A DNA stretch of 64,000 bases from Orbaceae bacterium ESL0727. Its GTDB lineage: Bacteria; Pseudomonadota; Gammaproteobacteria; Enterobacterales; Orbaceae. Positions 11,692 through 17,747 of the stretch are shown piece by piece. The notes below the pieces were generated by a model, which was not told where the DNA came from, did not search any database, and saw only the letters and a program-made list of their open reading frames with translations. Each line of letters starts with the position of its first letter. Within the stretch, counting starts at the first letter, position 1. The DNA is taken from contig JAQTHY010000001.1 of assembly GCA_029433345.1 (NCBI GenBank), positions 992,001 through 1,056,000 on the forward strand, in the 5' to 3' direction. A program made the position numbers and the translations under genes.

Positions 11692-12096
11692 AATAGTGGT
11701 TCTCAAAATGTAATGAATTACTTAAGACGTGATTATACCCAAAATAGTCTTAGAAAAGGAGATTATTATAGAGTGAATATTGAGAGATGATCAAATCATA
11801 GAACAAAAATAATCCCCATTACTGTTATTTTATTAACAATTTCTTCTTTACAATTTTTTACAAAAAAATGAATTTTTACTTAAAATAAATTTTCTTTAAT
11901 GTTAGAATTCAAACGTAATTATCGCGAAGCCTAATTTTTAACTATATAGTGTGGCAATTAAACCGATAAATAAAAAATCTAACGGTAAAACTGCTTGCAG
12001 GCCGCCAACAAGGTATGATTTCTAAGGATAAGTATAAAAAATAAAAACAATAAAATTTAAAAACGAATTGACATTTGAAATAAAGGATAGTAAAAT

Positions 12097-12652
12097 ATAA
12101 AAGCCAAAAAACTTTCGTCTTGTTAGAGAGATTTTTGGTCGTTTTTCTAGCGTAATTCATTTTTTATCTGCTTCCATTTATCAAAAATATCGCGATCAAA
12201 ATCGATCTATTCCACTATTTCTTCTAACATCATCTTATTTAAATCCGTTATTTTTACTATCACAACCGTTGCGCCCAAACTTTTCCCAACTGTTGTTTTC
12301 TCAAGTGCTGTTTTTTCAAGGACTGTTTTCTCGATTATCGCCTCTTAAATTAAGGCGTTATAAAGCACGCTTTTCTTCTTTTTCTCTGAAACGATTTTCA
12401 TCGATTTCACTCACTTCCGTATTGCGTTTATCAAGCGATTTATTTTCAAATTAGTAAAACATGTTTTTCATGTCCTTTTTGGTGTGCCTTCGGGTGCACC
12501 GTTTTTTTTTTAGGAATTTCATTTTAGGCGGATACGGCCTTATCCACCCCTATCACAAAAAATATTCACTATACGCCGCTCTATTTTACGACTGACGGTG
12601 GACAAACCCAAATTACCCATTTAGACGGATTACCGACGATTAACGTCGAAGG
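12097..12652 (+). pseudogene. Decayed 5' copy of the giant repetitive protein gene
   Basis: Duplicate of the first ~600 bp of the downstream gene. The start codon position is ATA instead of ATG, only one octamer unit remains, and the conserved frame (about 12106-12451) ends in TAG at 12452 before the signal peptide. Further frameshifts follow, and homology ends near 12652. The open part translates to a product clearly related to the downstream copy (for example LVREIF, HFLSA, YRD, SQPLR, FSSIS), so it was once coding. It could serve as a recombination donor for the intact copy, but no evidence of use is visible. Confidence 0.85.
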
Positions 12653-13001
12653 AAAACACTGCAAAATCCGCATAATTAATCGATAAGTAAACCCGCTATC
12701 CTAGGGCGAATATCGCAAGATCTCAAATCCAAAAACAAAAATAATCACTATTATTGTTGATTTATCAGTAATTTCTTCTTTACATTTCTTTACAAAAAAG
12801 AATGATTTTTTACTTAAAATAAATTTTCTTTAATGATAGAATCCAGAAGATATTATCGTTAAGCATAATTTTTAGCTATATTGCTGCGTAATTATAACGG
12901 TAAATAAAAAATTAACCGTAAAAAATGCTGATCATGCCGCCAACAAGGTATGATTTCTAAGGATAATTATAAAAATAAAAACAATAAAATTTAAAAACGG
13001 A

Positions 13002-13030
13002 TTGACATTTGAAATAAAGGATAGTAAAAT
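13002..13030 (+). promoter_or_regulatory. Sigma-70-like promoter abutting the giant gene start
   Basis: TTGACA (13002-13007), 17-bp spacer, TAAAAT (13025-13030), ending directly at the ATG. The same block is intact in the pseudogene copy (12068-12096). Within it, AAGGA (13017-13021) is also a fair Shine-Dalgarno for the ATG nine bases on. If this promoter is used, transcription would begin near 13037, inside the octamer tract, and the ATG would not be in the message; an upstream promoter would be needed for translation from it. Confidence 0.55.
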
Positions 13031-16000
13031 ATGAAAGCCAAAAAGCCAAAAAGCCAAAAAGCCAAAAAGCCAAAAAGCCAAAAAGCCAAAAAGCCAAAAA
13101 CATCCATCTTGTCAGAGAGATTTTTTCTTATTCCGCTAACATAGCGCATTTTTTATCTGCTTTCATATTTCCAACCTATCGCGATCGACAAAGATCTATC
13201 CTACCGTTTTCAGTATCATCTTGTTTCAATCTGCCGTTTTTAGCATCTCAACCGTTACGCCAACAATTTTCTCACTTATTGTTTTCTCTGGCTGGATTTT
13301 CCAAGCTAGCCTTTTCTCAATTACCGCTTTTCAAGTTATGGTTTTCTAATGGATACCCTTATTTTTCTTTGTCTTTTTATTCGTCTTTTTTAGTGCGATT
13401 TTCATCTATTACTTTATGTCGTTTATCTCATATTTCATGCTTTACACAAAAAAAACAGGCTTCTCATGTCCTTTTGGGTGCACCTTTGGGTGCACTGTTT
13501 TTTTTAGGCATTTCATTTCAGGCGAATGCGGCCTTATCCACGCATACCACACAAAATATCCAAGGTACGCCACCCTATTTTACGACGGATGGCGGACAAA
13601 CCAAAATTACCCAACCCGAAGGGTTATTGACGATTAATGTCGCGGGACAGACCTATGATAAAAATAATACCAGTAGTCCAGCGAAGCCGATTATTTTGCC
13701 ACAATCAGACACTACGCTTGAAAATATCAAGATGCTGCTCCCTTTTATTAAGGACACTAATGGTAATGCTATCAGCGCGATTAATTTCAATGATTTGCTC
13801 AAGGCGCCTTATGCCTATTGGGGCGATGATGAAGGCGATGGTCAAGGGGAAAATGGCATTACTGCGACCGGAAAATTAACCGTTAAGGCGGTAGGGACCG
13901 GTCAATATGGTCGGCAACGCGAAGTGAATCGTGCCCAGCCATTGGATATCTGTGATGGTCCTTTTAAGGTGGATATCAGTAACGAAGCTATTCTCTTAAA
14001 AACCCAATATGGTTTACCGAATACGGCTAGTTATCCGGCAATGACCAGCAGTTATTATGTCAACCTTAGCGGTATTTGCGTCTATCCGGCTTATGATGCG
14101 GATAGTAACAATAAACGCCCACGGATGTGGGATGCCGCTGGGTTAACGTGGATACGACTGGGTGAAGGTTGGGGTAACGGGAAAGACCAATCTTATAATC
14201 ACAACAATAATCCGTCGACTGAAACAAAACCGATTGTTCTGCCGATACAAGATGAAGCCCATCCGCCTGCCAAGCAGACCCTATTTGATGATGTGTTAAC
14301 TGTTATCAAATCGTATGACCGTGATAAGGCTAAGGATGGCACAGTACCGATCAACAATAGTGCCTCGTTACAAAATATTATGGGCGCAAATATGAACACC
14401 AAGTGGTGGAGTAAATGGTGGTATGTTGGTAATACTGCGCCGAGTGGCGTAACCGTGATAGGGGATGATCTCCAAATAAAAGCAACGCGCGCCGGTTCGA
14501 CCGAGGCGGTTGCCTTAAATGCGCCCCTTGAGATATGTGGTAAACCTTATGCGTTAACCCTTAGCAGTAATGGCGGCAAGATAACCGCGAACGATGGTCC
14601 TACCCGTTATACGACTTTTGCGGCAAAATCGACCACCTATTATATTACGCCAAGTGGTTATTGTGTCTATCCTGCTTATGGAGCGGATGCTAGTGGTCGC
14701 CATGCGCCTATGCAAGATGCCGGAGTATTAAATTGGGTAAAAGTAGGTAAAGGAACACGTGATGAAAAATCCTACACCGCGACGAATGCCGCAGCCACGC
14801 AAACCACACCGATTGTCATCCCATTAAAACCGTTAGCGAACGGGGCGACTCGCAAACCGCAAACTTTATGGGAAATTCAAACCGCCATCCAAGCGAAAGA
14901 TGCCACTCAAGTGCTAACCAGCATGTCGCTACAAGATTTAATGGGTAACCGGATACCGGGTACCGATTTCGGACTATGGTGGTATACCGGTAATCAGCCA
15001 GATGCCGTGATAGTCACCGATAAAAAGGGTAATGAAGGTAAATTAACTCTGGAAGCCAAAGATAAAAATAACCGGACTATTGGTTTACAAGATGACTTAA
15101 ATGCGTGCGCGGCACCGTATAGTTTAACCATTAGTAGTGGAGAAGGGGGCAAAATTACCGCCAAAGGCAGTGTGCCACATTATACCGAATTTGATGGGGT
15201 GACGAGCACCTATTATATCAACCCTAATGCGGTTTGTGTCTACCCGGCGTTTGATGCACAAAAGAAAACCCCTGTCAAAAATCTGCAAGGGCTGCACTGG
15301 ATAGAGTTAACCAGTGGCCAACAGAAAGTGAGGAAAACGGCCACCAACACCGCTGATACTCCTTATGAATTGTTAGGTGACAATGATACCTTAGCCAATG
15401 TGGTGACACCAATTCGCGCTTACTACGCCAGTATCAATAACACCAGTAATCTCAATGACAAAGAGATTGCCTTGCAAAGCTTAATGGGCGGCGCCAAAGG
15501 GACGCCATGGGGAAATTGGGGTTACACGGGTAATATCGAGCCGAAAGATATCAACGTCACGGGTAGTCTTAAAGTGAAAGTGACTGATAATACCAATACC
15601 GACGTGGCATTAGGCAGTCAACTCGATGTGTGTAAAGCACCGTATAAAGTCCGTATTCAGACCAATACCGGCACCATGACGGCGGCGAAAACTGCAGACA
15701 ATAAAGAGCTGGCACCTAGCTATAGCAGCTTTGCTGGATTGAACGAGAGTCACAACAATGCGACTGACTTCTATATCAAACCAAAAGGCACATGCGTCTT
15801 CCCGGCCTTTGATGCAGATAGACAGAAACAGTCGGCTAACCTTGAGGAATTACGTTGGATTGAGATAACGGAAAACAATCAAACCACCCGTTACACAACA
15901 AGTAATCAGCCAACACAACCTATCATTTTACCGACGAAGGATGCCAATACAGCGCAAACCTTATCTGAAGTGATGACCGTGATAAAAGGACGTAATGGTG

Positions 16001-17688
16001 CCAATAATAATGACGCCAGCATTGCCCTCCAAAACGTCATAGGAGCGGGTTATAAAACACTTTGGGGTAACTGGGGTTATCAAGCCTATAGCGGCAGTAC
16101 GCCACCAAGCGAGGTGACGGTATCGAACAATAGTCAGCTTACTATTACGGCGTCGGATCGCCTCAATAGAGCGATTGGCTTAACCGATGCCCTAAATGCC
16201 TGTGATGCGCCGTATAAACTGACTATTAGCAATACGGCGGGGACGATTACGGCGTCTGGCTCGGGTGTTGTAATGCGCAATACGCCATTTAGTGCCGGTA
16301 GTACCACTTACTACATCAAACCAAACAGTTACTGTGTTTACCCAGCATTTGATGCAGACAGGAAAATAGCGGCAACCAATATGAAAGCATTGCAATGGAT
16401 CGAAGTAGATAATACTCGGTACACCCCTGATGATACCAGTAAACCGGGGGCAACCTCAGCTAATCCGATCAATTTACCGATCATAGGACAAAGTGCCGCA
16501 GATATTAAAACAGCGCTTAAAGATTATGGTAGTAATGATAGTAGTCTTGGGTTAGATAAGTTAATTGGTGATAGTTATAAAGCAAAATGGGGTAACTGGG
16601 GATATCAGGGTGATACTCAACCAACAGGTGTCGCGGTTACGGGGCGACTTAATGTTACAGTCACAGATAAGAACGGTAATCCTGTTGATTTCAATGATAG
16701 ACTCTATAATTGCACAAATCACTTATCACCTTATCAATTAACGATCAGTAATGAACGAGGTAAAATTACAGCCAATGAGTTTGCTAAGGTAGTGAATTAT
16801 ACTAATTTTGATGCGTCAAGTACGACCTATTACCTGACACCAAAACCGCCAACTACCATAACAACCACGTGGGCACAACCTAACTTAGCGTATAATGATG
16901 TCAATTATGACGGATCGGGAAGTAATAGTTGGGAAAGCGCTCAGTTTGATAGTAGTAAAGGTTTTAGAATACAGAGCACAACGAATCCAGCAGTTAACTT
17001 CCCGACCACTGCTGCCAATGGATTATTCTTTAATTTACCTTTAGAAGGTCACGGCGTTGCATGGTGTGACTCATCACTAAAAGTTATTAAGGAGCCTGCC
17101 AATTCAGGTCTAAATATCGAAATTAGCAATGGTGGTACAGGTAAAATTATGAATGTTGCCAAAGTAACCATTAAAGGACCGAAAGATGGTGCATCGCAAG
17201 CTGAAGCAGAAACAGCCGTACCAACGACCTTTAAGATCATGTCAAATAATCAGGTTGTTTATAGCTTTAAAATAGCGCAATGGTTTATTGCTAAAAGGGG
17301 CGCAGATGTGCCTTTCTATGGGGGAGCTTTTAACTATTGTCGTAATACTTATGGAAACAAATATTCGTTGCCTACTGTTGGGAACTTGACTAATGCCAAT
17401 GGGATATATTGGACTTCAGGATTAGCGGGACAACCAAATCATTATAAACGTCAAATTGGTGGTGGAATTTTTGCTGAATGGGGATATACCGTAGGTAATG
17501 CCCAACCACGAAATGGCTCACCGGCGGCACCTAATTATTATTTAGGCAGTGATTTTGATCACCATTTCCATTGGACAGTGAATTCATATGATGATAAAAG
17601 GCAACGCACAGTGGATTCATTTAATGGTTTTGTAGGTTTCCAATATAATAACACTGCGGTAGGAAGAATCATTTGTGTGAAGAATTGA
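13031..17688 (+). CDS. Giant repetitive secreted/surface protein, predicted phase-variable (OFF as sequenced)
   Basis: Function unknown. From ATG 13031 the present frame stops at TAG 13142 after 37 codons. The frame that carries the protein is open without a stop from 13018 to 17688 and is joined to the ATG if one octamer is lost, giving 1549 residues. A conventional caller would start it at TTG 13279 (1469 residues). Order of parts: lysine-rich repeat (KAKKPKSQ), a ~115-residue Phe/Ser-rich region, a signal peptide (HVLLGAPLGALFFLGISF, cleavage likely after QANA, near 13532), about six units of 170-200 residues (13650-16850) and a distinct C-terminal domain of ~275 residues with Cys-rich, Gly/Trp-rich motifs (IGGGIFAEWG). 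No beta-barrel, LPXTG or type I export signal was seen. Base composition differs from neighbours: 14101-14160 has 31 G/C of 60. A terminator follows. Confidence 0.85.
13034..13100 (+). repeat. Octanucleotide simple-sequence repeat (AAAAAGCC)7
   Basis: After the ATG at 13031: partial unit AAAGCC (13034-13039), seven complete AAAAAGCC units (13040-13095) and trailing AAAAA. Since 8 is not a multiple of 3, every gain or loss of a unit changes the downstream frame. The copy in the pseudogene has a single unit, showing that the tract expanded. Confidence 0.95.
13477..13505 (+). terminator. Terminator-like hairpin inside signal-peptide codons
   Basis: GTGCACC (13478-13484), loop TTTG, GGTGCAC (13489-13495), then TG and eight T (13498-13505). 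The pseudogene has the same element in stronger form: GGTGTGCC-TTCG-GGTGCACC (12481-12500) followed by ten T (12502-12511). It lies within codons for LLGAPLGALFFLG. It may stop transcription when ribosomes are absent, or may only reflect the coding repeat. Confidence 0.5.
13650..16850 (+). repeat. Six tandem ~170-200-residue repeats within the giant protein
   Basis: Anchors of the form C-x-x-P-[YF]-x-[LV]-x-I-S recur near 13949, 14537, 15108, 15633, 16200 and a variant near 16710. Each unit also has a Y-x-x-F...TTYYI-x-P-x-x-x-CVYPA[FY]DA block, a W-I/V block, a PI-x-LP block, a SLQ-x-[LI]-[MI]-G block and W-G-x-W-G-Y-x-G followed by a short beta-rich stretch. Spacing of 510-594 bp. Units are divergent, so this is an old repeat. 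Confidence 0.88.
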
Positions 17689-17718: not shown

Positions 17719-17747
17719 AAATGCCGTCGACTTGACGGCATTTTTTT
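17719..17747 (+). terminator. Terminator of the giant protein gene
   Basis: Stem AAATGCCGTC (17719-17728) / GACGGCATTT (17734-17743), loop GACTT, followed by T to 17747. Confidence 0.92.

Follow-up and report, generated by a model that had tools for sequence, protein, structure and literature searches.

An octamer array after the start codon of a giant, predicted exported protein in an Orbaceae bacterium: a probable frame switch within a large, repeat-bearing gene family

Background

The hmw products of Haemophilus influenzae are adhesins. Their genes, hmw1A and hmw2A, carry arrays of heptamers, or in some strains of octamers, which are placed ~69 to 213 bp upstream and probably act on transcription, according to the sections of PMC2651432 that deal with them. 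In the same sections tetramers are given as the main class of SSR locus in H. influenzae, and the HI1369 homologue has an intragenic AACAACC array of 13 and 8 copies in two strains (PMC2651432). SSR contingency loci in Bartonella and Neisseria have been tied to host interaction in PMC11466379 and PMC5084427, and Gilliamella is described in PMC9598484 as a core gut member of corbiculate bees. The best matches of broad topic searches, with most subscription journals outside their scope, gave no report of phase variation or of such repeats in Gilliamella, and the relevant passages of PMC13372188 and PMC9598484 make no mention of repeats.

The locus that we describe here, from Orbaceae bacterium ESL0727, resembles the SSR loci of H. 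influenzae, as far as the cited sections present them, in having non-triplet tandem units in an open frame and alleles of different length. The H. influenzae arrays, however, are found in many different genes and are mostly tetramers, whereas those reported here belong to one paralogous family, comprise 29 different units, mainly heptamers, sit at the extreme 5' end of the gene and occur in relatives of insect symbionts. As in hmw1A and hmw2A, heptamer and octamer arrays accompany genes of large exported proteins, but here the array follows the ATG and lies downstream of the -10, so that the -35/-10 spacing is unaffected. Bartonella and Neisseria are bacteria of vertebrates, and in what the two papers present of them we saw no family that unites tens of loci under one leader design. 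Frame-switching SSRs are already established and an octamer is in itself no surprise; what differs here is the scale (one large family), the occurrence in relatives of insect symbionts, the many different units at one position, and an overlying promoter.

In this paper we compare the locus with its relatives across the bacterial family and, from the sequences, consider it likely that the array is a slipped-strand, frame-switching phase-variation (contingency) element.

Methods

The window analyzed is a 64-kb stretch of contig JAQTHY010000001.1 (positions 992,001 to 1,056,000), and coordinates below are positions within it. Arrays in the window were sought at periods 4-11, with a minimum of 2.9 copies and of 20 bp, and TRF was run on the window. 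Background was taken from twenty 20-kb segments of this genome, with the same copy and length thresholds and periods limited to 4, 5, 7, 8, 10 and 11.

Family members were found with a domain alignment (A1). From 314 open frames with the domain, 18 without a domain start, 4 with short upstream sequence and 55 duplicates were removed, leaving 237 distinct loci, in which the 520 nt before the domain were scanned for arrays of period 4-15 and at least 2.9 copies. Four near-complete genomes were tabulated separately (97 rows from 119 listed matches, those dropped being several matches in one gene, or matches that were weak or without a domain start); there, arrays were counted from 2.2 copies upward, and the ATG was scored, not the whole gene. 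Promoters were scanned at spacings of 16-18 only. Synonymous and other changes were counted over the first 450 nt of the domain, at codons with single-base differences, in pairs 70-97% identical, for which random change would give a synonymous fraction of 0.23. Array lengths were compared between copies that share the same unit and are 85% identical or more on each flank.

Results and discussion

The array and its reading frames

The 5' end of the gene contains the following features:

13002-13007 and 13025-13030, + strand: sigma70-like promoter, TTGACA and TAAAAT separated by 17 bp, 11/12 to consensus
13016-13021, + strand: ribosome-binding-site-like AAAGGA, 9 nt upstream of the ATG
13031-13033, + strand: putative start codon ATG, read from the sequence and from the in-frame ATG in the leaders of array-less relatives
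13034-13100, + strand: octamer array, 8.4 copies, the proposed slipped-strand frame switch
13101-13440, + strand: leader, in the frame open to 17688, with no in-frame ATG before the mature part and one TTG, at 13279

After ATG 13031 the sequence reads AAAGCC and then seven full AAAAAGCC units, and TRF returns 13034-13100 as period 8, 8.4 copies, 100% match, both in agreement with the first-pass annotation, which had described an ATG with AAGGA nine bases upstream followed by a partial unit and seven octamers. The unit length is not a multiple of three, the copies are several and perfect (8 bp x 8.4), and the array sits between the ATG and the gene body, so that its length sets the frame if ATG 13031 is used. 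The frame of this ATG runs in this assembly for 37 codons to TAG 13142-13144; another shuts at 13137, beyond the array (counted on the translation); and the third stays open for 1551 codons, to TGA 17686-17688, within a 1556-codon stop-to-stop frame that is the longest among all six frames of the window. The frame arithmetic put forward earlier (stops at 13142 and 13137, and the third frame open to 17688) was recomputed and is correct. Since the array length puts ATG 13031 out of frame with the 1551 codons, the gene reads as OFF in this assembly, if translation starts at that ATG. The TTG at 13279, in the open frame of the ORF list, is a possible alternative start, before which no ribosome-binding site was found by eye.

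There is no other array in the window at the thresholds used, and none was found in the 400-kb sample of the same genome at the six periods scanned. With one such array in the window and 0 in that sample, a chance repeat was rejected. An array of at least 2.9 copies is present in 6 of the 20 family loci tabulated from the window's genome. No second allele of the window array was found, the array being absent from the other genomes among the 35 of the genus.

The gene and its tandem copy

Downstream of the leader, and in the copy that precedes the gene, the features are:

13441-13545, + strand: signal-peptide-like stretch with basic residues, a hydrophobic core and small residues, judged by eye on the translation
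13477-13496, + strand: intrinsic-terminator-like hairpin with T run, within the leader
13555-16941, + strand: total span of six conserved-domain matches to the family alignment
13555-14136, 14185-14670 and 14758-15270, + strand: domain matches 1-3
15247-15789, 15808-16398 and 16345-16941, + strand: domain matches 4-6
16624-17688, + strand: C-terminal part common to the ~500-aa paralogues, which match at query residues ~1175-1526
17719-17743, + strand: intrinsic-terminator-like hairpin 3' of the gene, with 11 pairs and a T run
11769-12700, + strand: decayed tandem copy with promoter segment, leader and truncated mature start, ATA for ATG and no array
12480-12501: hairpin with T run in the leader of the tandem copy, similar to that at 13477-13496

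The tandem copy is 70.8% identical to the window gene over 951 columns. The window protein has six domain matches, against one in the other members tabulated, and a typical family member has ~500 aa. An intrinsic terminator in the leader was rejected as a device of the family, being found in 2/237 leaders compared with 0.7 in shuffles.

Size and distribution of the family

Of the 28 domain matches in the window's genome, six fall in the window protein. In the genus, 30 of 35 genomes have the family, with up to 45 matches in one; no member was found at E <= 1e-5 in G002, G008, G011, G012 and G029, which are listed as 99-100% complete. Matches were obtained in 37/44 genomes of the bacterial family and, in the order, in 19 of the 295 genomes drawn, all of them in the window's own bacterial family. 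The named relatives with family members are Gilliamella species and 'Orbaceae bacterium ESL0721', and the window's organism is probably a symbiont of the bee-gut type. In two other genera of the bacterial family the members examined, which are part of the matches there, were all array-less with an in-frame ATG (10/10), which points to an origin of the arrays inside the genus-level clade of the window.

Arrays and units across the family

The 237 loci held arrays of period 7 (111), 8 (10), 4 (9), 6 (4), 9 (1) and 12 (1). The period is thus 7, 8 or 4 in 130/136 and divisible by three in 6/136, and all six of the latter have fewer than 5 copies. The first-pass annotation had called an octamer unit less usual, which is true, but heptamers dominate the family, so the window locus is one of many and no curiosity. 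Array-bearing loci (at least 2.2 copies) number 10, 13, 13 and 19 in the four tabulated genomes.

Thirty distinct units of 4, 7 or 8 bp were found. When AATT, which looks like AT noise, was omitted, 29/29 were stop-free in every frame against an expectation of 0.60-0.645, and 22/29 had no T on the coding strand against an expectation of 0.05-0.10; since the units are partly related, no exact probability should be attached to these figures. Tandem copies of a 7- or 8-bp unit are read in each of the three frames in turn, which is why the unit must be stop-free if the array is to be read; the units found are as would be expected of translation through the array.

At family genes, GCCA tetramers in 18-29 copies occur at L209, L212, L215 and L218 (G006) and at L035 and L090, with two paralogue pairs differing in copy number (20/27 and 20/29). 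In the window's genome L048 and L051 are full-length, with octamer arrays of 10.2 and 4.2 copies and no ATG near the array, and retain a promoter-like segment, TTGAAA-17-TAGAA(A/T).

Coding constraint on out-of-frame members

Array members without an in-frame ATG showed 2911 synonymous and 1640 other changes in the domain (109 pairs), and array-less members 1596 and 879 (52 pairs). The leader of out-of-frame members gave 402 synonymous and 635 other changes (60 pairs), a weaker constraint, and third positions there still change most. Judged by these substitution patterns, the out-of-frame members are under purifying selection and are not decaying.

Frame states

An in-frame ATG was present in 40/42 array-less members of the four genomes, and the array-bearing members were in frame in 8 cases, out of frame in 45 and without an ATG in 2. 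Truncated copies occur among both groups (several). In members with long arrays, 5 of the 22 that have an ATG were in frame in the same genomes. Over all 237 loci, the ATG was in phase in 8/28 arrays of at least 6 copies, or in 6/28 after removal of two with stops before the domain, which is near one third.

The heptamer arrays are distributed by number of full units as follows: two units, 1 in frame, 8 out and 2 without an ATG; three units, 9 in and 85 out (94 loci, the commonest class, many of them close duplicates from one strain); four units, 6 in and 0 out. These counts overstate the independent events, both the paralogues and the units being related. Among the nine in-phase arrays of three units, 3 have stops before the domain and 5 are in phase through an extra ATG at the array edge. 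In the L205 cluster, adjacent copies whose leaders are almost identical have three units (out of frame) or four (in frame). The heptamer states suggest that three and four units may form the smallest reversible OFF/ON pair.

A translation start downstream of the array is unlikely for most members. Where no ATG at the array is in frame, 92/120 array members have no in-frame ATG, GTG or TTG between the array and the signal peptide; the other 28 have such a start after the array (TTG in 26, GTG in 7, ATG in 5), and it is accompanied by a ribosome-binding site in 1/120. Given the 92/120 with no downstream start, expression of most out-of-frame members seems to depend on the upstream ATG together with an array of suitable length.

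Differences in array length

The locus L008 (G031) is 99.47% identical over 3991 bp to L009 (G024), and they have three units and one unit, respectively, in genomes that are 59% and 67% complete; L010 (G013), which is 96.6% identical to L008, has three units, and none of these loci is in frame. In pairs of long arrays the unit number differed in 3/3. Short-array pairs agreed in 230/256 cases and differed in 26/256, nearly all of these differences (24/26) being traceable to two single four-unit copies. On these comparisons long arrays look labile and short arrays fairly stable, and the length conservation of the short arrays is not hypermutable behavior.

A promoter over the start codon

In the window locus the promoter covers the ribosome-binding site, and its last base immediately precedes the ATG. 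Its 29 bases are found unchanged at 12068-12096 in the tandem copy, which has lost the ATG. In array loci the best promoter is within one mismatch of TTGACA-TATAAT in 76/130, and in 31/53 after thinning of similar upstream sequences, compared with 8/88 array-less members; the spacing in array loci is 17 in 83, 18 in 43 and 16 in 4. The -10 ends 1-5 nt before the array in 119/130 loci (3 nt in the window); in 8 the distance is 14 nt. Over the overlap region the mean number of mismatches of 12 was 1.11 in 140 array-bearing loci against 4.06 in shuffles, and 3.28 against 3.88 in 85 array-less loci, where the control is mononucleotide shuffles and paralogy inflates the signal. By eye, the offset of the ATG from the -10 varies between lineages while the -35/-10 spacing is kept. 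A promoter-type SSR switch, of the hmw or nadA kind, was considered and set aside, the -10 ending before the array and the spacing being unaffected.

A transcript from the overlying promoter should, as predicted from its position, start inside the array and so lack the ATG, and this overlap is the main weakness of the frame model. No promoter for an ATG-bearing transcript was found above chance in up to 400 bp upstream, family-wide, in array-bearing or in array-less loci. In a comparison of the window gene with the tandem copy, two blocks (12770-12849 and 12930-13048) stand out from the adjoining sequence by their higher conservation, and the first block has a weak site with TG before the -10 (12814-12842, 9/12). 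Either the ATG-bearing transcript starts further upstream, at a site that the scan would miss, or the promoter has another role. One such role, which we regard as unlikely, is that a strong promoter covering the start codon drives the synthesis of a short, ATG-less transcript into the array, and that this act of transcription destabilizes the array or recruits recombination with sister copies, by which silent members would be kept switchable. If this two-layer coupling is true, the repertoire in these symbionts of bees would be mostly silent: each of the four tabulated genomes has 10-19 array-bearing members, of which few would be on in any one cell.

Weighing of the explanations

If the array is a frame switch, translation from ATG 13031 would pass through the octamers and the length of the array would set the frame; slipped-strand mispairing would alter the unit number in a small fraction of cells, and in a population few cells would express each protein. 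Taken together, the family would then supply exported proteins, probably located at the surface, in varying combinations, with most of them silent. The same ON/OFF contingency reading, with the locus OFF here, had been proposed from the window, and it draws support from the frame states, the coding constraint and the stop-free units of the family, and from the differing array lengths of some near-identical copies.

The out-of-frame members might instead be a reservoir of silent cassettes which donate by gene conversion to a few expressed, array-less genes, the array then being a by-product or a homology block whose length is unused as a switch. Such a reservoir, which could coexist with switching, would fit the large families (up to 45 matches per genome), the clustered copies with near-identical leaders, the out-of-frame state of most array members and the short arrays that seldom differ, and conversion could likewise maintain purifying selection; it does not, however, predict stop-free units (29/29), an ATG that is retained with its ribosome-binding site ahead of the array, or long-array members that are in frame (5/22), and we think it quite unlikely. 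The position of the promoter (within one mismatch in 76/130 array loci and 8/88 array-less ones, its -10 ending 1-5 nt before the array in 119/130, its segment unchanged in a decayed copy without an ATG) would also suit an untranslated transcription-start element, in which unit number tunes transcription or the 5' end and not the frame. That the leader has a coding bias in one frame with no start codon of its own in 92/120, that the units are stop-free and that array-less relatives have an in-frame ATG all make this very unlikely.

Decay of a pseudogene, in which an accidental repeat shifted the frame and the copy is being lost like its truncated upstream neighbor, is brought to mind by that neighbor (11769-12700, ATG lost) and by the several short family copies in the window's genome. 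We give it very little credence, as 1551 codons are still open with six domain matches, and the design recurs across the genus with the out-of-frame members conserved. Repeat tracts are prone to miscounting, but the pattern recurs in several assemblies, two of them single-contig (G006, G026), and the array itself is exact, which makes an assembly or sequencing artefact in the repeat number extremely unlikely.

The frame-switching reading has several consequences. In a clade of insect-gut symbionts each genome appears to have at least ten such loci, all from one gene family, and gene callers may truncate many members or label them pseudogenes, by which the repertoire would be easily missed. The bee gut community is simple and culturable. 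The system should be testable in an animal host, where it could be asked in which bees a given exported protein is switched on and whether its target is the host, phage or rival strains.

Product and flanking genes

In Pfam the window protein had no match at E <= 1, and no barrel or passenger domain of a classical autotransporter or other type V system was recognized at that threshold; no NCBIfam model scored above its cut-off for the window protein, and the family as a whole had no Pfam or NCBIfam match above cut-off. Among curated families the best match was DUF7926 (E 0.0013, one member, below its cut-off), and sequence searches of the PDB gave one weak match (E 0.00096) to a chain called SAKeCEref. 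A C-type-lectin-like C terminus is suspected by us from motifs and is not claimed, the sole hint of it in the searches being a match of one member to Xlink below threshold (E 0.11). A plasmid search gave nothing useful, and a contig search with the window protein alone as query was unproductive.

The locus is flanked by housekeeping genes, with mltC, focA and the pyruvate formate-lyase gene on one side and mutY, a pheA-type gene and trmJ on the opposite side. Elsewhere in the window, at 2537-2841, three tRNA-Arg genes (anticodon acg in two, tcg in the third) lie in tandem repeats of 114 bp.
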